64,000 bases of DNA from Parvularculaceae bacterium (GTDB taxonomy: Bacteria; Pseudomonadota; Alphaproteobacteria; Caulobacterales; Parvularculaceae), in NCBI GenBank assembly GCA_021776475.1, contig JAJFFV010000005.1, forward strand, positions 1,736,001-1,800,000, in the 5' to 3' direction. Of this stretch, positions 19,185-33,375 are shown piece by piece. Position 1 is the stretch's first letter. Each line of letters starts with the position of its first letter. The position numbers were made by a program, and so were the translations under genes. The notes beneath the pieces were generated by a model that was not told the origin of the DNA, searched no databases, and saw only the letters and a program-made list of their open reading frames with translations.

Positions 19185-19250
19185 GAGCCATTCTTTATTT
19201 TTGTGATCGAGTTATGGCTTGGGCTTGAGATTTTCTATAATCTTGGCATC
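19185..19250. repeat. 66-bp perfect direct repeat, copy 1
   Basis: Identical to 20151-20216 over all 66 bases, starting GAGCCATTCTTTATTTTTGT. It spans the stop codon and last codons of each PD40 lipoprotein gene and marks the ends of a ~966-bp duplicated unit. Confidence 0.9.
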
Positions 19251-20120
19251 GACCCAGTATATATCTACTTGTTTTTCACCGTTTATACGTTCCCCCGAAC
19301 GCCGATCAAAAAAGAGAAACTTTCCGTCGGGTGACACACTCGGATAGTTTTCGGCTTCGGTGGTATTTATCTTGTCGCCTAAGTTAATGGCAGGGCCCCA
19401 TGAGCCATCGGTCGCGCGATGACTGATATAGAGGTCGGACGTGCCATATCCGCCTTCTCTTCTGCTATCCCAGATGATGTAGGATTCATCAGGTGCGATG
19501 AAGGGGTGGGCATTGTAAGTGCCAATGCCAAACTGCGGGCCCAATGACTGCGGTTGTTCATATTTGCCATCTATCAATCGTGAATAGCGCAGAGGAGTGT
19601 CTAATTCCGGGGTAAAGGTATCAAAATAATATGTGCCGTTGGACAGCGCCGAAAGCCGCATAATGTCGATGTCTTTGAAAGGTGCGCCGAGGCTCTTCAG
19701 CTCCGACCAACTCGCGCCGGTGCGCTCCATATATTCTGTTTTAAAATAGAACCTCATCCCATCGGGAGAGATAGATCCTTCACTCACTCCTTGTTTGAGA
19801 TGAGCCTCCTGCCATTGACTATTTTTGTATTCAATGACTGTCAAAACATTGGACTCAGATTCCTCACCAAGCGGTCTCCGGATGAAATAAAACTCATTCA
19901 TACCCGGCGCAAACATGCCCTCGATTTCACGATTATCTTTTGTATTTACAATACCGGGCGCAAAAACTTCAGGGATTGAACCGGGAGGCTCCTGTCCGAG
20001 ATAAGGACCTTCAAGAACTGAAATGTCATCTTGGGAATGGCTGTCAACCGTTTTACTCGTCGCGCAACTCACAACAAAGAAAGCGGACAACAGAATTATG
20101 GATGATGAAAAACGCTTCAT
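19212..20120 (-). CDS. PD40/TolB-like beta-propeller lipoprotein
   Basis: A 302-residue lipoprotein (signal MKRFSSSIILLSAFFVVSC) whose mature part shows WD40-like PD40 repeats: GSISPDGMRFYF, HPFIAPDESYIIWDSRREGG and SVSPDGKFLFFDRRSG. Such propellers occur in TolB and in periplasmic signalling or binding proteins; no ligand can be inferred. AAGGACATAGC precedes the ATG. It is the downstream member of a tandem pair; the paralogue at 20178 has the same architecture and an identical C-terminus (DAKIIENLKPKP). Confidence 0.8.
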   Translation of the reverse strand: MKRFSSSIILLSAFFVVSCATSKTVDSHSQDDISVLEGPYLGQEPPGSIPEVFAPGIVNTKDNREIEGMFAPGMNEFYFIRRPLGEESESNVLTVIEYKNSQWQEAHLKQGVSEGSISPDGMRFYFKTEYMERTGASWSELKSLGAPFKDIDIMRLSALSNGTYYFDTFTPELDTPLRYSRLIDGKYEQPQSLGPQFGIGTYNAHPFIAPDESYIIWDSRREGGYGTSDLYISHRATDGSWGPAINLGDKINTTEAENYPSVSPDGKFLFFDRRSGERINGEKQVDIYWVDAKIIENLKPKP

Positions 20121-20150: not shown

Positions 20151-20216
20151 GAGCCATTCTTTATTTTTGTGATCGAGTTATGGCTTGGGCTTGAGATTTT
20201 CTATAATCTTGGCATC
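20151..20216. repeat. 66-bp perfect direct repeat, copy 2
   Basis: Second copy of the 66-base repeat at 19185-19250, again covering the 3' end of a PD40 lipoprotein gene. Confidence 0.9.
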
Positions 20217-21053
20217 TACCCAAAATATATCGACATCTTCGTAGTCATCTGAGCCCATATTTCTACTGAAGAAAAGGTATTTTCCGTTGGGTGTAACACT
20301 CGCTGACGCCTCCCATGTGTCAGTATTTATCTCATTGCCCAGATTAACTGCAGCGCCCCACGAACCATCTTTCTGTTGAAAACTAATATAGATATCTGAA
20401 TCACCATATCCATCTTCTCTCTTGGCATCCCATAACAAATAGGATTCATCAGGCGCTATAAAAGGATGGTTCAGATAGGTCCCTGTATTGATTGCTTCGC
20501 TCAAGGGTTTGGGAGTTTCATATTTTCCATCCACTAATCGCGAATACCGGATAGGAAAGTCCAATTGATCTTTGTTGAAGGTATCAAAATAATAAGTTCC
20601 GTTTGCGGAAGCCGTAAGACGCATGATTTGCAAGTCTTTGAAGGGAGCCTCAAGTTCTTTTACTTCTGACCATCCTATCTCAGCCCGTTCTTTATAACGC
20701 CTGCCCAAATGCATGGTCTTACCATCGGGGGAGATGAAAGGTTGCCCGACCCGAGGTGAAATTACTGACTCTCGCCATCCGTCTTCTTCATTTTGAAAAA
20801 CTGCAAACGAAGCTTTTTCATACTTACCGCCGTTTCTGAGGAGATAGAATTCTCTCAGATCTGGTGTGAAAGTGCCGCCGTATTCCCAGTGCTCGGTCGA
20901 AACTATTCCTGGTGCAAATCGTGCAGGTGTTAAGCCGGGAGGCCTTTGTCCGAGATAGGGACCTTCAAGAATAGGCTTTTCATCTTGAAGCTGACAAGCA
21001 CAGCTCAAAGCAACAACGGACAAAAGAATTGTAGATGATGAAAAACGCTTCAT
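20178..21053 (-). CDS. PD40/TolB-like beta-propeller lipoprotein (paralogue)
   Basis: A 291-residue paralogue of the gene immediately downstream. Lipobox SVVALSCAC, the shared phrase ILEGPYLGQRPPG, and PD40 repeats (FISPDGKTMHLGRRY, HPFIAPDESYLLWDAKRED, SVTPNGKYLFFSRN). Middle regions differ considerably while the ends are nearly identical at DNA level. This suggests either a recent end-homogenising conversion or an old duplication with retained termini. AAGGAAATATC precedes the ATG. Confidence 0.8.
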   Translation of the reverse strand: MKRFSSSTILLSVVALSCACQLQDEKPILEGPYLGQRPPGLTPARFAPGIVSTEHWEYGGTFTPDLREFYLLRNGGKYEKASFAVFQNEEDGWRESVISPRVGQPFISPDGKTMHLGRRYKERAEIGWSEVKELEAPFKDLQIMRLTASANGTYYFDTFNKDQLDFPIRYSRLVDGKYETPKPLSEAINTGTYLNHPFIAPDESYLLWDAKREDGYGDSDIYISFQQKDGSWGAAVNLGNEINTDTWEASASVTPNGKYLFFSRNMGSDDYEDVDIFWVDAKIIENLKPKP

Positions 21054-22011: not shown

Positions 22012-22332
22012 ATGAGTAAGAATTCAACTAATATGCAGACTATCCTCTTGGAGGACGTTCTCGATCTGACGGTCTCAGCACAACTTGTAGATTCCCTCCA
22101 TGCGCACCGCGGCAGTAGCCTTCGCTTGGATGCCTCGAGGGTCGTGCAGCTGGGAGCTCTGTGTCTTCAAATTCTCTTATCAGCTACACGGACATGGGCC
22201 AGCGACGGAGTGGATTTGAAGATCATCAACTCGTCGCCAGTTTTTTTAGATGGCCTAGAAGGCTTTGGTATGACCGCTGTCGAAAATGTCAATATGGAGG
22301 CGGATCAATGCCACTCAATATCCTTGCTGTAG
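22012..22332 (+). CDS. STAS-domain protein of the chemotaxis operon
   Basis: A 106-residue single STAS domain (LEDVLDLTVSAQLVDSLHAH, LRLDASRVVQLGALCLQILL, GVDLKIINSSPVFLDGLEGFGM). The usual phosphorylatable Ser after the D-x-S motif appears as DASRVVQLGA. Family members act as anti-sigma-factor antagonists or, next to che genes, as CheS-like partners of CheA. The stop lies 25 bases inside the following cheY, so the operon is translationally coupled. It is the first gene of the plus-strand chemotaxis operon. Confidence 0.8.
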   Translation: MSKNSTNMQTILLEDVLDLTVSAQLVDSLHAHRGSSLRLDASRVVQLGALCLQILLSATRTWASDGVDLKIINSSPVFLDGLEGFGMTAVENVNMEADQCHSISLL

Positions 22333-22673
22333 ATGATTCACAAACCATGCGGGATATGTTGGTTCTTGCACTGGCAGGAGCAGAATTTAATGTGACATTG
22401 GCTGAAAATGGGCTGCAAGGGATTCATGCTCTTCAAAAGATGAACCCAAATGTGATCATTACTGACATCAATATGCCTGTTCTTGATGGGTTTGGCTTCA
22501 TTGAGCGAGTGCGTAAGGGTGACAAGCTTCGCGCTGTACCGATCCTCATACTGACAACAGAAAGTGCACCGGAACTGAAACAGCGCGCACGTAACGCCGG
22601 TGCAACCGGCTGGATTGTTAAACCTTTCGATAAAGTCAAATTGATAAGTGCGATACGCAAAGTCGCAGCGTAA
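22308..22673 (+). CDS. cheY: Chemotaxis response regulator CheY
   Basis: Single receiver domain of 121 residues. The acidic pocket is AVDDSQ, the phospho-acceptor Asp is in TDINMPVLDG, the conserved Thr is in LTTES, and the Lys is in IVKPFD. It should be phosphorylated by CheA and act on the flagellar switch or serve as a phosphate sink. The ATG at 22308 follows GGAGG with seven-base spacing and lies inside the STAS gene; an earlier in-frame start is not supported. 20 bp precede cheA. Confidence 0.9.
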   Translation: MPLNILAVDDSQTMRDMLVLALAGAEFNVTLAENGLQGIHALQKMNPNVIITDINMPVLDGFGFIERVRKGDKLRAVPILILTTESAPELKQRARNAGATGWIVKPFDKVKLISAIRKVAA

Positions 22674-22693: not shown

Positions 22694-24826
22694 GTGGATA
22701 CAATGGATGAGATAAAGCAGACTTTTTTCCAAGAGTGCGAAGATCTGTTGGCTGAACTGGAAAACGGACTCCTCATGGTCAATGAAGGGTATGGTGATTC
22801 AGAGACCGTCAATTCTATATTTAGAGCTGTGCATTCTATCAAAGGCGGTGCTGGTGCATTCGGCCTCGACGAACTGGTCGATTTTGCACACGCTTTTGAA
22901 TCGATACTGGATGAAGTTCGTTGTGATCGGCTAGAAACCACCGGCGAAGTCCTGAAAGTGCTGCTTCAATCAACCGATGTGCTTGCCGACTTAGTCCAAG
23001 CGGCCCGTGTTGGCGAGAAGTGCAACACTGAGCGCACTCAATTCCTGGTAAAGGAATTAAATCTACTCGCCAGCATACCCTCGAACAAAGAAACAGTGGA
23101 CACACAAAGGCCCCAAGAGGCAATTGATGAAAACGGACTAGATTTTCAACCAGTCGCAATCGATCTTGATACCTGTACAGACGGTGACGCGTCATCATTG
23201 CCAAGTAAGAAGATTTTTGAGATCGCGTTTACGCCAAAACCTTCCTTATATTCTAGTGGAAATGAATCCGCACTGATTTTACGAGAATTGTCCCAATTAG
23301 GAGATCGAAAGATAGAATGTGATATTTCTCGCATTCCAACCCTAGACGCAATCGATCCAGAAGGTGCGTACCTTTCTTGGTTTATAAAGCTCGAAACCGA
23401 TGCAGACGAACCAGCCATTCGCGAAGTGTTCGAATTCGTTGAAGGCGAGTGCGATCTGACTATCAACCACGTAACAACAAGTCCCCTCACTGAAGAAGGG
23501 GTTGTGCCAGAAGCACAAATAGAGCGCCAAGAGCAGCGTGAGGTTGTCGAGGGTCGCAGCCCAGTAGAAACTGAAAATCAGCCTACACAAACAAATAGCA
23601 AAGTCCTTACGGCACCAAAAGCCGACGAACAGCCGGATCGCAGGACCTCTGGGTCACCGGCAACGATACGGGTAAGCCTTGAGCGTTTGGATCGGCTCCT
23701 AAATCTTGTCGGCGAGTTGGTCATCAACCAGTCAATGATAGCCCAATATACCCTTGTGCCGGGGGAAGCAAGCGGCTCGGCAGTATCAGCCAAGCTTGAT
23801 GAGGTCGAACAATTAACCCGGGAGATTCAGGACTGCGCGATGACAATCCGTGCACAGCCTGTTAAGTCTCTGTTCCAGAGAATGTCTCGAATTGTTCGTG
23901 AAGGTGCTGCTTCGACTGGAAAATCAGTACACCTTATAACGGAAGGAGAAGCAACAGAAATTGATAAAATCGTTATCGAACGCTTAACTGATCCGCTTAT
24001 GCACATGATCCGTAATGCTGTTGACCATGGCTTGGAGACGCCCGACAAACGACTTGAAAAGGGCAAGCCGGAACAAGGTACAATTCGCCTTTCTGCTGCG
24101 CATCGCTCCGGTAGGATAGTGATCCATGTTTCGGACGATGGTGCAGGAATAAATCGTGAGCGTGTTAAGCAGATTGCCATCGACAAAGGTCTAATTCCTG
24201 AAGATGCTCAACTGACAGATGCTCAAATTGATAGTCTGCTTTTTATGCCGGGATTTTCGACCGCTACAGAAATATCAAATATGTCTGGCCGCGGAGTCGG
24301 AATGGATGTCGTAAAGCAGGCGATTCATGCGCTCGGTGGTCGCGTCTCGCTCGTGTCGAGGCCCGACCACGGATCTACATTCACCATCAACTTACCATTA
24401 ACGCTGGCGGTGTTGGATGGCATGGTTGCACAGGTTTCCGGCCAGACAATCGTCGTACCGTTGTCGGCTATCATCGAAACCCTGCAACCGAAGCCACACG
24501 ACATCCACGGACTTGGTTCGACCGCGCGCGTTTTGTCAATTCGCGGAGAATTCCTACCCATCATCGATCTTGGCCACGAACTGGGCTATTGTGAAGACCA
24601 GCAGGATCCCTTGAAAGGTGTTGTTCTTTCTGTGGAAACACATGAGGGCAATCGTTGTGCTCTACTGGTGGATTCAATTCAGGATCAACGCCAAGTGGTC
24701 ATCAAAAGCCTCGAAGACAACTATGGCTCTGTACCGGGAATAGCGGCCGCTACAATCCTCGGTAACGGCTGTATTTCGCTTATTCTCGATGTAGATTCAG
24801 TTGTAAATCGAAGAGCTGCTGCATGA
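22694..24826 (+). CDS. cheA: Chemotaxis histidine kinase CheA
   Basis: A 710-residue kinase with P1 HPt domain (phosphorylated His 47 in RAVHSIKGGAGAFG), a linker/P2-like region, P3 dimerisation (RVSLERLDRLLNLVGELVI), P4 ATPase with N box (HMIRNAVDHGLE), G1 (SDDGAGINRE) and G2 (MSGRGVGMDVV), and a C-terminal CheW-like P5. It starts with GTG: GGAGGG lies seven bases before GTG 22694, whereas the ATG at 22703 would be too far away. It couples receptors to the two CheY proteins and CheB encoded nearby. Confidence 0.95.
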   Translation: MDTMDEIKQTFFQECEDLLAELENGLLMVNEGYGDSETVNSIFRAVHSIKGGAGAFGLDELVDFAHAFESILDEVRCDRLETTGEVLKVLLQSTDVLADLVQAARVGEKCNTERTQFLVKELNLLASIPSNKETVDTQRPQEAIDENGLDFQPVAIDLDTCTDGDASSLPSKKIFEIAFTPKPSLYSSGNESALILRELSQLGDRKIECDISRIPTLDAIDPEGAYLSWFIKLETDADEPAIREVFEFVEGECDLTINHVTTSPLTEEGVVPEAQIERQEQREVVEGRSPVETENQPTQTNSKVLTAPKADEQPDRRTSGSPATIRVSLERLDRLLNLVGELVINQSMIAQYTLVPGEASGSAVSAKLDEVEQLTREIQDCAMTIRAQPVKSLFQRMSRIVREGAASTGKSVHLITEGEATEIDKIVIERLTDPLMHMIRNAVDHGLETPDKRLEKGKPEQGTIRLSAAHRSGRIVIHVSDDGAGINRERVKQIAIDKGLIPEDAQLTDAQIDSLLFMPGFSTATEISNMSGRGVGMDVVKQAIHALGGRVSLVSRPDHGSTFTINLPLTLAVLDGMVAQVSGQTIVVPLSAIIETLQPKPHDIHGLGSTARVLSIRGEFLPIIDLGHELGYCEDQQDPLKGVVLSVETHEGNRCALLVDSIQDQRQVVIKSLEDNYGSVPGIAAATILGNGCISLILDVDSVVNRRAAA

Positions 24827-24852: not shown

Positions 24853-25320
24853 ATGTCAGATATCGATAACATCGAGAATATGGATACTTCCGAATTTCTT
24901 GCCTTCCGCGTCTGCGGTCAGGAATATTGCGTCAATATAATGTCCGTACAAGAAATACGTGGCTGGAGTCCGGCGACGGCGTTACCGGAAGCGCCAGATT
25001 TCATTCGCGGAGTGATCAACCTACGTGGTTCTGTTTTACCCATTATTGATCTCGCAATTAGACTAGGGCTGGAAGAAACAGATCCAACAACAAGGCATGT
25101 TGTTGTTATCTTACAAATACGCAATCAGATTGTTGGGCTCCTCGTCGATGCTGTGTCGGATATTCTAACCGTTATGCGTAGTATGATTCAGGCAACCCCA
25201 GATGTCATGTCCGACAATACGAAATCTTTTATTTGCGGCGTATTGGCGATGGAGGGGCGCATGATCAGCCTCGTTGATCTTGATCTTTTTCTACCAGAAA
25301 CTGCGGATCTTAAACCATGA
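24853..25320 (+). CDS. cheW: Chemotaxis coupling protein CheW
   Basis: A 155-residue CheW linking CheA to receptors. Features: FLAFRVCGQEYCVNIMSVQEI, FIRGVINLRGSVLPIIDL and ICGVLAMEGRMISLVDL, all typical of the double beta-barrel fold. It ends with TGA overlapping the ATG of the truncated cheR (ATGA), showing translational coupling. Confidence 0.94.
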   Translation: MSDIDNIENMDTSEFLAFRVCGQEYCVNIMSVQEIRGWSPATALPEAPDFIRGVINLRGSVLPIIDLAIRLGLEETDPTTRHVVVILQIRNQIVGLLVDAVSDILTVMRSMIQATPDVMSDNTKSFICGVLAMEGRMISLVDLDLFLPETADLKP

Positions 25321-25511
25321 GAAATGCCCTCATCCGCGGCAATGGTCCTAAGTTAACGATCGGCACGCTCAATGAGAGTTCGCCGTCGGATGTCACAATG
25401 CAACGGAAAGCATCCGCTGTCGCTATTCACGGGTCAAACGAGAAAACACTGTTTGTGTACGATAGGCTAGTAAAATACCTGCGCAGGAGGAACCATAAGT
25501 ATGTCGCTTAA
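25317..25511 (+). pseudogene. cheR: Truncated cheR: N-terminal domain only
   Basis: A 64-codon frame begins within the cheW stop, exactly where cheR sits in many che operons. Its second half (SPSDVTMQRKASAVAIHGS, then NEKTLFVYDRLVKYLRRRN) follows the CheR N-terminal helix pattern (SGI-L--K--LVY-RL-KRLR). It then stops at 25509-25511, overlapping the next cheY. The SAM-dependent methyltransferase domain (~200 residues) is entirely missing. It may be an expressed relic of the receptor-binding domain or simply a deletion scar. Identification rests on a short match. Confidence 0.6.
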
Positions 25512-25887
25512 GGAGCAACTTAAAATAATGGTTGTAGACGATATGTCCACGAGCCGGGGGCTTGTTTTAAATGCGCTGCAAGCAATTGGTTTTAAGAAGT
25601 ACACATTTGAAAATACGGGTGCGAAGGCATTCAAGGAAATATGCACAAATCCCGTACATTTGGTGATTTCAGACTATAATATGCCTGAGATGGATGGGTT
25701 GCAGTTACTCCAGGCTATTCGTGAGTACAAGCCAACCAGTAGGATAGGGTTTATCTTGCTGACAGGTAGCGCCGAAGCTGGGTTAATAACGCGGGCTGGC
25801 AAATTGGGCATGAACAACTATCTCAAAAAACCATTTCAAACTCTGGATTTAAAAAATTGTATTGAGAAAGTGGTTGGCAAGCTATAG
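25501..25887 (+). CDS. CheY-like single-domain response regulator
   Basis: A second receiver protein, 128 residues: MVVDDMSTSRG acidic pocket, SDYNMPEMDGL phospho-Asp, LLTGSAE Thr, YLKKPF Lys. The start overlaps the truncated cheR by 11 bases and has AGGAGGAACC upstream. Alphaproteobacteria often carry two CheYs, one acting on the motor and one as phosphate sink; which role this has is not evident. Confidence 0.9.
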   Translation: MSLKEQLKIMVVDDMSTSRGLVLNALQAIGFKKYTFENTGAKAFKEICTNPVHLVISDYNMPEMDGLQLLQAIREYKPTSRIGFILLTGSAEAGLITRAGKLGMNNYLKKPFQTLDLKNCIEKVVGKL

Positions 25888-25990: not shown

Positions 25991-26386
25991 ATGTCTGAGA
26001 TAGATTCCGAAAATTGTTCAGATAACGCTACTTTGCCCGCAGCAGAAGTGTTGCGCCGAACTGCTCGCGAACTACGTGACCTAACTACCACAGCAGATCA
26101 GTTGCAAGTTGCCCTTAGCAGTATCATCACTGAATCGAGCGAGCAGACATCGAACCAAATATACGAATTGCAGCGACTTGACTATCTGAAGCAGTCTGTC
26201 GATGAGATCTCCAACTTTCTGCAGCGCCTAGCAAGCGATACTCCTGGAGATTGGAAATACGATGCAATTGCCGCCGTCGATGAAATAAAGTTAACCGCTC
26301 TTGCCACAAGATTATCGAAAACGGACGAGACTACAGTCAATGGCGATGGACTTGATGATGTTGGAAAGTGCGACCTTTTTTTGTAG
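25991..26386 (+). CDS. Small helical protein at the end of the che operon
   Basis: A 131-residue, mostly helical protein (AAEVLRRTARELRDLTTTAD, YELQRLDYLKQSVDEISNFL) with a disordered acidic tail. The heptad-like central helix and operon position suggest a CheZ- or CheT/CheU-like accessory factor. I see no certain catalytic motif, so this is an inference from context. It begins 103 bp after the second cheY and converges on the PilZ gene. Confidence 0.6.
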   Translation: MSEIDSENCSDNATLPAAEVLRRTARELRDLTTTADQLQVALSSIITESSEQTSNQIYELQRLDYLKQSVDEISNFLQRLASDTPGDWKYDAIAAVDEIKLTALATRLSKTDETTVNGDGLDDVGKCDLFL

Positions 26387-26403: not shown

Positions 26404-26745
26404 TTAAACAAATTTGTCTTCGAGGTTCTTAGCCAAGCGCATCCGTGCATCAATACTGTGGTTAAACCGAATACCAAACCCACCGTTGAAACCGCGAACA
26501 ACTGTGCAAGGAATGACGCCGAATTCACTGGATGTCATGGTATAATTGCCACCAATAGATAGTTTCATAAAAGTCCAGAATGACGCACCCGTAGCAGATA
26601 TATCAATCAATTCTCCAGAAGCGCAGCGCTTATGCCCTTGAACAATATCAACCCGTCCTTGCGTCCGATACCGCGCCGATTCTCGATGCCGTACGGATAA
26701 TAAGCTGGTCATTGTTGAGTACTCATGCCTGTTCGCCAGATGCAT
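26404..26745 (-). CDS. PilZ-domain protein
   Basis: A 113-residue single PilZ domain, a c-di-GMP-binding fold. The two ligand motifs are visible: RHRESARYR (RxxxR-like) and DISATGASF (D/NxSxxG). It follows cheB on the same strand by 59 bp, so c-di-GMP may modulate this chemotaxis system. A shorter start at the internal MTSLLSVRH is possible. Confidence 0.8.
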   Translation of the reverse strand: MHLANRHEYSTMTSLLSVRHRESARYRTQGRVDIVQGHKRCASGELIDISATGASFWTFMKLSIGGNYTMTSSEFGVIPCTVVRGFNGGFGIRFNHSIDARMRLAKNLEDKFV

Positions 26746-26803: not shown

Positions 26804-27838
26804 TTAGACGACGTGTTTTCTTTTTTCAATCTGACAAAGAGTGAGTATTGCACTTGCTATGTGAGTCAACCCTAACTGTGTTTCAACGGCACCGATTTCG
26901 TGCGCGGCACGTGGCATCCCATAAATGACTGAAGTACTCTCATCTTGACCGATCGTGTATCCACCCGCATTTCGAATCGCCAGCAACCCATCGGCGCCAT
27001 CGCGACCCATACCAGTCAATATCAGCCCGACTGCTCGGTCCGCAAAATTCGCAACAGATTCGAACATAACGTTTACTGATGGAATGTTTCCCAGTCCTTG
27101 TCGATCTTCAACTAAGCGGCAAACAGGCCTAAAGCTACCAGATACTTCCAGATGCGAATTACCTCCTGGTGCAATGTATATGTGACCAGGGAGTAGCGGT
27201 GCTCCATTTTGAGCCTCAGAAATTTCAGGTGCGCATAATTCGTTCAATCTTTGAGCAAAACGCTCTATGAAATGCCCAGGCATATGCTGCGTTATGAGTG
27301 TTGGTGGGCACTGGGCAGGAAATTCTGACAAGATTGTTAGCAGTGCCCCCACACCGCCGGTCGATGCGCCAATTGCGAGCACACGATCATTGGCTACATA
27401 ACCAGATAACCGTGCGATACTGGTATTTTCCTGTAGCCAACTCTGCGGATTTGCTTGTGCTGCAGATTTGATTTTTTCGGCAAGGCCCGACAGTGCATTC
27501 AAGTGGTCATTGGTGGGTTTTCCGATGCACTCAACGGCTCCGAGGCTTAGAGCATCAATCGAAGTGGCAGTTCCTTTTTGAGTTAGATTTGAGATTAGAA
27601 TTACAGGTGTAGGCCGTAAGCGCATGATTAACTCAAGGAAGCGCAAGCCACTCATCCGAGGCATTTCAACGTCAAGGGTGATCACATCGGGTGATAATGC
27701 TCTTATGGCCTCTCGAGCCTCATAAGCGTCTCCCGCCTCACCGACAATCTCGATTGTCGGATCGCGTCGTAGGACGGCTTTGATGATCGCTCGGTATGTT
27801 GGTGAATCATCAACTATGAAAACACGGATTCGATTCAT
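26804..27838 (-). CDS. cheB: Chemotaxis methylesterase/glutamine deamidase CheB
   Basis: Two-domain CheB: receiver domain (FIVDDSPTYRA, TLDVEMPRMSGL) followed by the methylesterase with Ser in AIGASTGGVGA, His in TQHMPGHF and Asp in LTGMGRDGADG. It removes methyl groups from receptor glutamates and deamidates glutamines. 344 residues is normal. It lies 20 bp behind the MCP gene in a minus-strand operon. Its partner methyltransferase cheR is truncated in this locus. Confidence 0.95.
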   Translation of the reverse strand: MNRIRVFIVDDSPTYRAIIKAVLRRDPTIEIVGEAGDAYEAREAIRALSPDVITLDVEMPRMSGLRFLELIMRLRPTPVILISNLTQKGTATSIDALSLGAVECIGKPTNDHLNALSGLAEKIKSAAQANPQSWLQENTSIARLSGYVANDRVLAIGASTGGVGALLTILSEFPAQCPPTLITQHMPGHFIERFAQRLNELCAPEISEAQNGAPLLPGHIYIAPGGNSHLEVSGSFRPVCRLVEDRQGLGNIPSVNVMFESVANFADRAVGLILTGMGRDGADGLLAIRNAGGYTIGQDESTSVIYGMPRAAHEIGAVETQLGLTHIASAILTLCQIEKRKHVV

Positions 27839-27857: not shown

Positions 27858-30032
27858 TCAAAATTCCTGCCAGTCGTCGTCATCTTCACACATTTCAGAT
27901 TTCAACGAGGCCGAACCTTGGGAAGTTGCGTATGTAACTGCTCTTTGCTGCTGTTGGGCAATTGTCATTTCTTGGCGAGCCGAAAGGGTCCTTCGCTCTG
28001 GGAGCCGGACGCATTCGTGGGGCGTTGAGGTTATGTGAAACTTCTTGACCAAATCAATAAGCGTCTCTGCCTGCTGTGTGAGGCAGTGGCACGCAGCTGT
28101 CGATGCTTCCACCATGGAAGCATTTTGCTGGGTGACATGATCCATTTGATTCACAGCGACATTAACTGCTTTCAAGCCATTCGCCTGTTCCTGCGTCGAC
28201 GATGCGATGTCGGCAACAAGTCCGCTAATATCTACGACTTTGTCAATCATCTGTTGCAAGGCGTTCTTTGCTTGCCCGACCAGATCAACACCAGTTTTGA
28301 CCTGTTGAGAACTCGTGGAGATCAAACTCTTAATCTCTTTGGCGGCGTTCGATGATCGCTGAGCCAATGCACGAACCTCAGAGGCGACCACCGCAAACCC
28401 GAGTCCTGCGTCTCCCGCTCGGGCAGCTTCGACACTGGCATTCAAGGCAAGTAAGTTAGTCTGGAAGGCGATTTCTTCGATAACGCCAATAATCTGCGAA
28501 ATCTGGCGTGATGAATCTTCGATCTCATTCATTGCTGACACGGCCTGACTGACAACTTTGCGGCTAACCTCTGCGTTTTCGCGCGCCTGGGATACCACGA
28601 CGTAAGCCTGATTTGTGCCCTCGGCAGCTGCATTCACTGTTTCTGTAATTTGCTCAAGAGAGAAGGCTGCTCCTTCAAGTGAAGCGGCTTGGTTTTCCGT
28701 TCGTTGTGACAAATCATCCGCAGATTGACTGAGTTCGCTCGCTCCCGACTTTATAATAATAGTATTGGAAATGATCGCCTTCATTACATCATGTAATTTA
28801 GCGACTGCCTCGTTGAAGTCAGAACTAAGTTTTACGTGTTCACCGGTTGACCCTATTTGGGTTGTGAGGTCACCGTTCGATAATCTACATAATCCTTCAG
28901 CTAGCGTAGCAACAATCTCCTCTTGTTCTTTGGTTACCGCGGCGAGGCTCAACTCTTTCAGACGGCGTTTTGTTTCAATTTCCGTGATATTCTTGGCAAG
29001 CATGACAACCCGGTACGGATGCCGATCCTTATCCCTTAGCGTGGTGTATACGGCATCAACCCACACAACTTCGCCACTTTTGGAAACAAAACGACATTTG
29101 TCTGCAAAAAAGCCATCTCGTCGCAAATTATCCCAAAACCCTCCTTCGTCATCAGCCGCATCTACGAATAATCGATGATGGCAGCCTTTAAGTTCGTCCG
29201 CTGAATATCCCATCGTGCTTAGAAATAGGTCATTTGCGCTGATAAGTTCTCCATCCGTTGTGAATTCTGCAACGGATTGTGTGATATCGGTTGCTGCAAA
29301 GACACCGTCTTGCAAGCGTTGCTCTGTAACTGCACTCCAGGCGAGTATGTTACCAACGTACTTACACTCTTGATCAAAATAGCTGGAAATACATACTTCA
29401 AAAATTTCATTACCAATGTGTATGTCAACAGAGTGAGGAACAGCACGGGGTTGGTCGAGGAAAATATCTTTTTGACCTTGATTTAGCATTATCAGGTCCA
29501 TGTTCGAACCAAGTAAGCTTTCAGGGTCGAATTCCGGATCCACTTTCCTAAACGCATCTGCGTGTGTTTGGAAAAAAGTCATTCCAGATGGATTGATCGA
29601 AGTAATCAAAAAGTTTTGGTCTGTGATCAAACATGCGTCAGGCGATCCGGCAAAGAATGCATCCTTGAATTCCACCAATTCATCCGAGTGCTTAGCTTCT
29701 AACTGTTCCCTTAGTTGGTTAAGGGCTGTTGCCAGTTGTCCGATTGCATCTTTGCGATCCAGACCGCTTATCGAGACACAATATTCCCCTGCAGCCATGT
29801 TCTGGGCTGCATTTCGAAGCTGATCTAGCAATCTAAAAATGTTGCGCCTAGCAAGAAAAATGTAACTTGCAAATATTATCAGGCCAAGCAGTCCTATGCC
29901 TGCAATCCACGAAAAGCCCGTAACATGAGCTTCGCCGTTATCTTGAAAAGCAAGAGCGGGCTCAGGTCCAGCTATAGTCCATAAGAATAACGATAATATC
30001 GCTGAGATCACTATTCTGCACATAATATCCAT
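27858..30032 (-). CDS. PAS-containing methyl-accepting chemotaxis protein with DWQEF tether
   Basis: A 724-residue receptor. N-terminal signal/membrane segment, a second TM (IAGIGLLGLIIFASYIFLA), a HAMP domain (~65-115), two PAS domains (~120-230 and ~245-350, the second with FTTDGELISANDLFLSTMGY), and the signalling hairpin (FQTNLLALNASVEAARAGDA). There is little periplasmic domain, so sensing is probably cytoplasmic via PAS, e.g. redox or energy state. It ends in DWQEF, a WxxF pentapeptide that tethers CheR/CheB. It heads the operon with cheB and PilZ. Confidence 0.93.
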   Translation of the reverse strand: MDIMCRIVISAILSLFLWTIAGPEPALAFQDNGEAHVTGFSWIAGIGLLGLIIFASYIFLARRNIFRLLDQLRNAAQNMAAGEYCVSISGLDRKDAIGQLATALNQLREQLEAKHSDELVEFKDAFFAGSPDACLITDQNFLITSINPSGMTFFQTHADAFRKVDPEFDPESLLGSNMDLIMLNQGQKDIFLDQPRAVPHSVDIHIGNEIFEVCISSYFDQECKYVGNILAWSAVTEQRLQDGVFAATDITQSVAEFTTDGELISANDLFLSTMGYSADELKGCHHRLFVDAADDEGGFWDNLRRDGFFADKCRFVSKSGEVVWVDAVYTTLRDKDRHPYRVVMLAKNITEIETKRRLKELSLAAVTKEQEEIVATLAEGLCRLSNGDLTTQIGSTGEHVKLSSDFNEAVAKLHDVMKAIISNTIIIKSGASELSQSADDLSQRTENQAASLEGAAFSLEQITETVNAAAEGTNQAYVVVSQARENAEVSRKVVSQAVSAMNEIEDSSRQISQIIGVIEEIAFQTNLLALNASVEAARAGDAGLGFAVVASEVRALAQRSSNAAKEIKSLISTSSQQVKTGVDLVGQAKNALQQMIDKVVDISGLVADIASSTQEQANGLKAVNVAVNQMDHVTQQNASMVEASTAACHCLTQQAETLIDLVKKFHITSTPHECVRLPERRTLSARQEMTIAQQQQRAVTYATSQGSASLKSEMCEDDDDWQEF

Positions 30033-30972: not shown

Positions 30973-33375
30973 ATGAAATTCTGGTATACCATCCGTGTAC
31001 GTTTGTTGAGTGCTTTCGGTTTCGTTGCGCTCCTGACTACAGTGGCAACGGTCGTTTCGTTGATTGCGCTCGATTCAACAGCAGAAGCGGTTAGGCAAGT
31101 CAGCCAACAACACCTGCCTGAAACGTATATTGCAAATGGCCTCTCCACCCTGAACTACAGAATGGCTGATAAAATATCCGATCTGGCAACATCGCCTAAT
31201 GATGTTGCTCGTCAACGTAATTTTGTCCAATATAATGAATTATTTTACGAAACCAAAAGTGAGATAGAATCCCTCCTTGCACTAACCGAAAATCCAGAGA
31301 AAGTTAATGATTTAATCTCTTCCAGATTGCAACTATTATCCATTGCAGATGCAGTCAACACGGCGCAGCAAAAATTTCTTGAATCAAAAAGCCAGCGCGA
31401 AGGCTTGCTAAAAGAAGCTCATATTGGAAGGGAAGCGCTACAATTAGCTCTAGAACGAGCAATCGACGATGCTGATGAGCTTGACGTCGAGACCTATTTG
31501 CGTACCGGCCTTGCTGCAAATTTGATTGCTGCAAGTTATGCCGAGTTAGCGTTCGCGGACACACCAGAAGCCGTCCAAAAAATCCAAGATAGGGTGGCCG
31601 AGCAAGCAGATGAAATTTCTATCAACATCGCCCTGTTGGGCAAATCAATGCCTGAAAACGTTGTAGAAAAATCGAAATCATTTCTCTCTATTAGTGAAGG
31701 TGATGGCGGGCTTTTTGCTATGCGCTTGCAAGAAATAGACGCTCTATTTGCGGCAAAATCTGCACGTACAAAAGCGGAAAAAATTAGTAACACCGCTTCC
31801 GATCAAATAGATGTATTTGTGAATGATATTCGCCAGGTTGTCGAAGAAGCCGCAATGTACACGACCACTCAAGCGCAAGGATTTAAGGTCAGCTTGTGGT
31901 TTGTAGCGGTTTTGACGATCCTTGCATCTGCCGTTGTTTGTTGGCTTTATGTGGCCCGTGACCTCCTATACCGAATCGGTAATCTCAGTACCGTCATGAA
32001 AGCTGTTTCCAAAGGTGACCTGTCCGCCCAAGCCGATAGTCTCGATACACAGGACGAACTTGGTGAAATGGCCCGAGCTCTCGAAGTGTTCCGTGAAAAT
32101 GCAAAGGATATGGTTCGATTGCATGCAGAAAAAGCGATTGCGGATGAGAAGGCTCAGGAAAAGGAAAAAGCGGAGCGCCAGCGTGAAGCGGATAGAGAAC
32201 AAGCTCAACAGGATCTCGCGAACGCTGAACGCCTTCGGAACGAGCAGGAACGCCGTGTAATGATGAGCAGGTTACGCAGTGCATTTGGCGCAATGGTCAA
32301 GGCCGCGGGTCGTGGCGATTTTTCAGAGCGCGTGACAGAAACTTTCGAAGATCCGGAACTTAACGAACTGGCTGAAGGGCTGAATACTCTCGCAGCAACA
32401 GTTCAAGATGGTCTCGCGGAAACCCGGCAAGTATTGGCGGCAGTCGCGAAATATGATTTGTCATTTCGAATTGAAGGCCAATATGAGGGTGAGTTCGAAC
32501 AACTAAAGGATGGTGTTAATGCGACTGCGGATAACCTGACTGAAATAGTTGGTCAGTTGCAGTTTTTAGCGGTCAATCTTCGTGAAGCAACCGGTGAACT
32601 TCTAGACGGCGCTGATGACTTAACCAGCCGCACTTCGCAGCAGGCGGCCAAAATAGAAGAGACATCATCGTCGACAGAACAGCTTGCCCGGTCAGTAAAA
32701 GAAAACGCGGACCGAGTAGTCCAAGCCCGGTCGTGCACTTTGGCCGCTAACACGATGGCCGAAAATGGCGGCGTTATCATGCATGAGGCGACACAAGCGA
32801 TCGATCGTATCGCAGCGTCATCATCAAAAATCTCTGATATCATTGGTGTGATCGACAACATCGCCTTCCAAACAAACCTACTCTCCCTCAACGCCAGTGT
32901 TGAGGCCGCACGAGCGGGAGATGCCGGAAGCGGCTTTGCGGTTGTCGCGTCTGAAGTACGCCGTCTTGCCCAGTCCGCGAGTGACTCTTCCAAAGAAATC
33001 AAAACTTTGATTGACGCAAGTGTCACTGATGTGCAGCGCGGGGTTGAACTTGTCTCGAGTGCTGCCTCCAGTTTGGAAGGTATTGTAACGACCGTTTCCG
33101 ATGTCACTAAATTGATGAATGCCATAGCCGACGATAGTCGGGAACAATCCGGGAGCCTCGACGATGTCAATCTCGCCATCCGCGACATGGATCAAATGAT
33201 CCAGCATAATTCTACAATTGCCCAGCAGACAAATGAAGCGATATCAGTTGCAAACGTCCGGGTGGCAGATATTGATGATATCGCGAGCGGTTTTACTTTG
33301 AAAGCAAGGGAGGGCACTCCTGCACCGGAAATCGATAGTCATGACGCGATCAGGAGTGCTGTTCAGTCTGCATAA
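30973..33375 (+). CDS. Methyl-accepting chemotaxis protein with periplasmic sensor
   Basis: An 800-residue receptor. TM1 (LLSAFGFVALLTTVATVVSLIAL), a ~280-residue helical periplasmic sensor domain, TM2 (LWFVAVLTILASAVVCWLYV), HAMP (~340-390), a charged coiled coil (KEKAERQREADREQAQQD), a second HAMP-like segment, and the signalling tip (FQTNLLSLNASVEAARAGDA). There is no C-terminal WxxF pentapeptide (ends RSAVQSA), unlike the MCP next door. Ligand unknown. Confidence 0.92.
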   Translation: MKFWYTIRVRLLSAFGFVALLTTVATVVSLIALDSTAEAVRQVSQQHLPETYIANGLSTLNYRMADKISDLATSPNDVARQRNFVQYNELFYETKSEIESLLALTENPEKVNDLISSRLQLLSIADAVNTAQQKFLESKSQREGLLKEAHIGREALQLALERAIDDADELDVETYLRTGLAANLIAASYAELAFADTPEAVQKIQDRVAEQADEISINIALLGKSMPENVVEKSKSFLSISEGDGGLFAMRLQEIDALFAAKSARTKAEKISNTASDQIDVFVNDIRQVVEEAAMYTTTQAQGFKVSLWFVAVLTILASAVVCWLYVARDLLYRIGNLSTVMKAVSKGDLSAQADSLDTQDELGEMARALEVFRENAKDMVRLHAEKAIADEKAQEKEKAERQREADREQAQQDLANAERLRNEQERRVMMSRLRSAFGAMVKAAGRGDFSERVTETFEDPELNELAEGLNTLAATVQDGLAETRQVLAAVAKYDLSFRIEGQYEGEFEQLKDGVNATADNLTEIVGQLQFLAVNLREATGELLDGADDLTSRTSQQAAKIEETSSSTEQLARSVKENADRVVQARSCTLAANTMAENGGVIMHEATQAIDRIAASSSKISDIIGVIDNIAFQTNLLSLNASVEAARAGDAGSGFAVVASEVRRLAQSASDSSKEIKTLIDASVTDVQRGVELVSSAASSLEGIVTTVSDVTKLMNAIADDSREQSGSLDDVNLAIRDMDQMIQHNSTIAQQTNEAISVANVRVADIDDIASGFTLKAREGTPAPEIDSHDAIRSAVQSA

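Follow-up and report, generated by a model that had tools for sequence, protein, structure and literature searches.

Does a bacterium that carries a frame of only 64 codons at the cheR position of its chemotaxis locus, next to an intact cheB, still methylate its receptors, and what is this frame? To our knowledge, bacterial chemotaxis systems are regarded as adapting almost without exception by CheR and CheB. The original prediction took the frame for a cheR reduced to an N-terminal stub inside an otherwise complete operon, and left three readings: receptor methylation is lost, another cheR serves from elsewhere, or the stub is itself an expressed receptor-binding peptide.

Results

The window, i.e. 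the whole stretch of 64,000 nucleotides that was analysed, corresponds to bases 1,736,001-1,800,000 of contig C5, and the coordinates below are window positions. The genome is of 3.4 Mb in six contigs and is 99.5% complete; the contig carrying the locus exceeds 1.7 Mb. On the plus strand the cluster begins with a STAS-domain protein (22012..22332; Pfam STAS_2, 1e-7), present at the same position in relatives, followed by the response regulator cheY1 (22311..22673; Response_reg, 4e-26), whose longer open frame begins upstream. Then come cheA (22694..24826), with all its domains and an intact phosphorylation site (H-box RAVHSIKGGAGAFG), cheW (24853..25320), the stub (25317..25511), the response regulator cheY2 (25501..25887) and a small protein, X131 (25991..26386). 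Beyond X131, the minus strand carries a PilZ-domain protein (26404..26745; Pfam PilZ, 8.5e-9), cheB (26804..27838), encoding a receiver and a methylesterase with the catalytic motifs GASTGG, QHMP and GMGRDG intact, and the chemoreceptor MCP1 (27858..30032); a second chemoreceptor, MCP2 (30973..33375), follows on the plus strand. As had been stated, cheA, cheW, the two cheY and cheB are all full length. The locus is indeed otherwise complete, but it is not one operon in the sense of one transcript, since cheB lies past X131 and the PilZ gene and is read in the other direction. The placing of the stub was also accurate: its start overlaps the stop of cheW as ATGA, and its end overlaps cheY2 by 11 bp.

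In relatives, the gene at this place is cheR. It directly follows cheW, with 283-309 residues, in 12 of the 13 operons first compared; in the 13th (G046) a cheR frame of 320 residues overlaps the end of cheW more deeply. Eight more operons of the family have a cheR of 264-299 residues at the same place, so that 21 related operons, from the family and the order, carry a full cheR (264-320 residues) after cheW, and cheY2 comes next in most of them. The closest syntenic match is Parvularcula NAT21 (L140/L209), which has the same order, including the reversed cheB and MCP, and an intact cheR of 291 residues. The stub shares with such alphaproteobacterial cheY1-cheA-cheW-cheR-cheY2 operons its position and its overlap with cheW, the start of intact cheR often overlapping the cheW stop as ATGA. 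The comparison with sister genomes, proposed at the outset, thus gave full cheR genes in the family and the order but none in the genus: CheR, CheB, CheW and MCP are absent from all five genus sisters (G001-G005), which leaves no sister cheR for comparison. Flagellins were found in these five genomes, with no chemotaxis genes detected.

Operons without cheR do exist. Two second-copy operons of the family lack it (G034:C11 and G008:C3), and in G034:C11, L168 and L188 (Aquamicrobium aerolatum) cheW and cheY2 are separated by 93, 26 and 24 bp respectively (L106 6554-6648 for G034:C11, L168 6441-6468 and L188 6441-6466). The present locus likewise has no cheR between the two genes; these three operons, however, contain no stub, and a free-standing cheR is kept elsewhere in their genomes, whereas the present genome has none. 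They are che operons independent of the present one. No stub-like frame or conserved homologue was found in the relatives compared.

The sequence of the stub also points to cheR, though to a small part of it. The check proposed for PF03705 failed: a Pfam-A search gave no match at E<=1, neither PF03705 nor PF01739 being called. With a profile built from 87 alphaproteobacterial operon CheRs, residues 36-58 align to model positions 39-61 at a low score of 6.6 bits, a value reached by 3 of 5000 shuffled sequences and by none of 1134 pieces of the window. With a fixed matrix of 22 columns, codons 36-57 (25422..25487, AIHGSNEKTLFVYDRLVKYLRR), homologous to helix 2 of CheR_N (GIALSDAKKTLVYSRLAKRLRA), rank first among the 59,324 22-mers of the six frames of the window, scoring 0.7 versus -11.2 for the runner-up. 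The resemblance to the N-terminal helices of CheR that had been noticed is therefore real and in register for helix 2, but does not extend to helices 1 and 3: neither these nor any of the later blocks of CheR occur in any frame of the window, helix 1 being missing even just upstream of the match, where it is expected. A frameshift in cheR found no support as an explanation of the stub, as helix 1 and the remaining CheR are absent from the other frames. Compared with CheR of the NAT21/L209 type, the stub lacks helix 1, the remaining CheR_N and the SAM-binding domain (64 versus about 291 residues). It thus has neither the PF01739 domain nor the all-alpha PF03705 domain of a functional CheR methyltransferase; what it has are the marks of a cheR remnant, the ancestral position in a conserved gene order and in-register homology, which upholds the claim of a cheR N-terminal end deprived of its methyltransferase domain.

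The search for CheR over the whole genome, which the original prediction had called for, gave a single match to PF01739 and no stand-alone CheR. The match lies inside a CheB-CheR-PAS-HK-REC hybrid of 1502 residues on contig C3 (L104 1133-5641, G000:C3), a contig of 60 kb; its CheR domain is complete (190 bits) and includes CheR_N. Methylation might therefore continue through this protein, the lost cheR being redundant, and MCP2, which retains all its E/Q pairs, would agree with this. We nevertheless consider this explanation unlikely. The hybrid, which has a HisKA domain, adjoins a regulator of the OmpR type and is not in the che locus. Moreover CheB-CheR fusions, in open frames of 1185 and 1461 residues, occur in the relatives G024 and G036, in which neither an MCP domain nor a match to CheW was found; for this reason the hybrid probably does not serve as a methylase dedicated to receptors. 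The state of MCP1, described below, also speaks against it.

The genome holds only two MCPs, both at the che locus. MCP2 is without the C-terminal CheR/CheB pentapeptide; MCP1 has kept it (WQEF, in DDDWQEF) as well as glutamine at methyl-accepting sites 1 and 3, and has a glycine at site 2 (28671-28673, minus strand) and an alanine at site 4 (28104-28106, minus strand). Glu or Gln occupies sites 2 and 4 in 49 of the 49 other pentapeptide-bearing che-operon receptors of our set, so that the loss in MCP1 is distinctive within the pentapeptide class only, not across all che-operon MCPs: in Rhizobiaceae, operon receptors without the pentapeptide mostly lack acceptor residues at sites 2 and 4 too. 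As read from the gene, these two substitutions lend support to a loss of receptor methylation.

Discussion

Among the three readings first proposed, the loss of methylation fits best, given the CheR domain confined to a hybrid, the fusions of MCP-less relatives and the lost sites of MCP1. We hold with good, if not complete, confidence that the stub is a pseudogene, the decayed 5' end of a cheR left after a deletion of about 0.7 kb, and that receptor methylation is probably lost. An internal deletion would have joined the middle of CheR_N to the Shine-Dalgarno sequence of cheY2; the junction is probably at AGGAGG (25485..25490), identified with the upstream regions of cheY2 in relatives, because the CheR match ends there. 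From the lengths in NAT21, about 230 codons and a short spacer, i.e. about 0.7 kb, would be missing. The remaining N-terminus would then have drifted, helix 2 alone staying recognisable. Such a remnant would make no methyltransferase, and the two receptors would probably no longer be methylated; CheA, CheW, CheY and CheB probably still signal, deprived of the adaptation that CheR drives. Some observations count against a pseudogene: the low score of the helix-2 profile, a frame that is still open, an intermediate codon usage, and the fact that helix 2 is recognisable but helix 1 is not, which is unexpected under uniform decay. The codon usage, at the 8th percentile of coding pieces and the 92nd of off-frame pieces, is not decisive.

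The clean overlaps on both sides had been taken as a hint of an adapted stub. This is a weak argument: the left overlap is inherited, since intact cheR of relatives starts with the same ATGA, and the right one arises because the reading frame runs into the Shine-Dalgarno sequence and start of cheY2. The same overlaps, with the stub stop just past the cheY2 start, could suggest that the frame was kept merely as a translated spacer coupling the translation of cheY2 to that of cheW once cheR was lost. We find this quite improbable: cheY2 owns a strong AGGAGG at a spacing of 10 nt, and coupling appears unneeded because, in most relatives that retain an intact cheR, 9-132 bp separate this gene from cheY2.

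That the stub is expressed as a small protein, its single helix binding the receptors and modulating them or blocking CheB, has some appeal. What survives coincides exactly with helix 2 and its Arg/Lys face (VYDRLVKYLRRR), in an open frame that overlaps both neighbours, and AlphaFold2 predicts one helix at residues 41-63 (pLDDT about 74-81). In CheR, helix 2 faces the methylation region of the receptor, a contact for which our literature search found no open paper. The same model contains no domain, however, and has an overall pLDDT of 61 and a pTM of 0.27, with no predicted structure for the N-terminal 40 residues; the Shine-Dalgarno sequence of cheY2 supplies the codons of the last two arginines, the codon usage is intermediate, and relatives have no similar stub, even where cheR is gone (G034:C11, L168, L188). 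We therefore judge such a peptide very unlikely. As for an error of assembly, with a cheR present in the organism but collapsed in the contig, the evidence does come from one genome assembly of the species, but the clean junction on so long a contig, the absence of helix 1 also upstream of the junction and of any stand-alone CheR elsewhere, and the loss of acceptor sites in a receptor make it scarcely credible.

If the stub is a cheR pseudogene, how would the system work with CheB alone? We infer that CheR function is lost while signalling continues. Alanine at adaptation sites raises kinase activity, although no open paper was found for this in our literature search. The Gly and Ala of MCP1, immune to deamidation by CheB, could act like receptor-activating changes, and might thus preserve some activity in a receptor that CheB would otherwise bring to the low-activity Glu state. 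On a bolder and rather doubtful view, CheB was kept and CheR dropped, the neutral residues of MCP1 hold the kinase partly active, and the cell steers in a non-adaptive way, perhaps with the help of a receptor-binding peptide derived from the CheR helix.

There is an experimental parallel to such a state. In E. coli with CheB and without CheR, receptors drop to a low-activity state (PMC12270135). Laboratory-evolved E. coli delta-cheR regained the following of gradients through receptor-activating changes, CheB being altered but not abolished, and had no short-term adaptation (PMC12270135). Absence of CheR, presence of CheB and substitutions in a receptor are common to both cases; on the other hand, the E. 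coli strains arose by evolution in the laboratory with other substitutions, whereas the present case is natural and known from genes alone. Helicobacter pylori, too, has chemotaxis genes and no dedicated CheR; it performs chemotaxis without CheR and CheB and may rely on CheV (PMC11357200), while the present locus has its CheB intact. If our reading is right, the locus would be a natural counterpart of the evolved delta-cheR strains, the only chemotaxis cheR being lost, CheB kept and acceptor sites lost in one of two receptors; its interest rests on the matching receptor change together with the retained CheB.

Instead of signalling independently of CheR, the che system may simply be decaying, since the five genus sisters have no CheR, CheB, CheW or MCP and the seven proteins of the che cluster that we compared are all somewhat below the median identity of the family. 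The locus would then show chemotaxis at an early stage of being lost. Relaxed selection was not established from this drift: identity is the lowest of the set for X131 only, CheY2 being next to lowest.

X131 itself gave no significant match in Pfam. Its relatives are found in about 25 alphaproteobacterial che loci and have in common with it, by alignment, a D-x3-Q motif (LQRLDYLKQ in X131) and a C-terminal tail like GDVDLF. Its sequence agrees with the published account of CheT, a phosphatase of CheY that resembles CheZ and, in S. meliloti, binds CheR (PMC12654446). Finally, upstream of the che cluster, the minus strand encodes two neighbouring paralogues of about 300 residues each (19212-20120 and 20178-21053), both secreted-looking; their C-terminal residues are almost identical (DIYWVDAKIIENLKPKP and DIFWVDAKIIENLKPKP), which suggests a tandem duplication.
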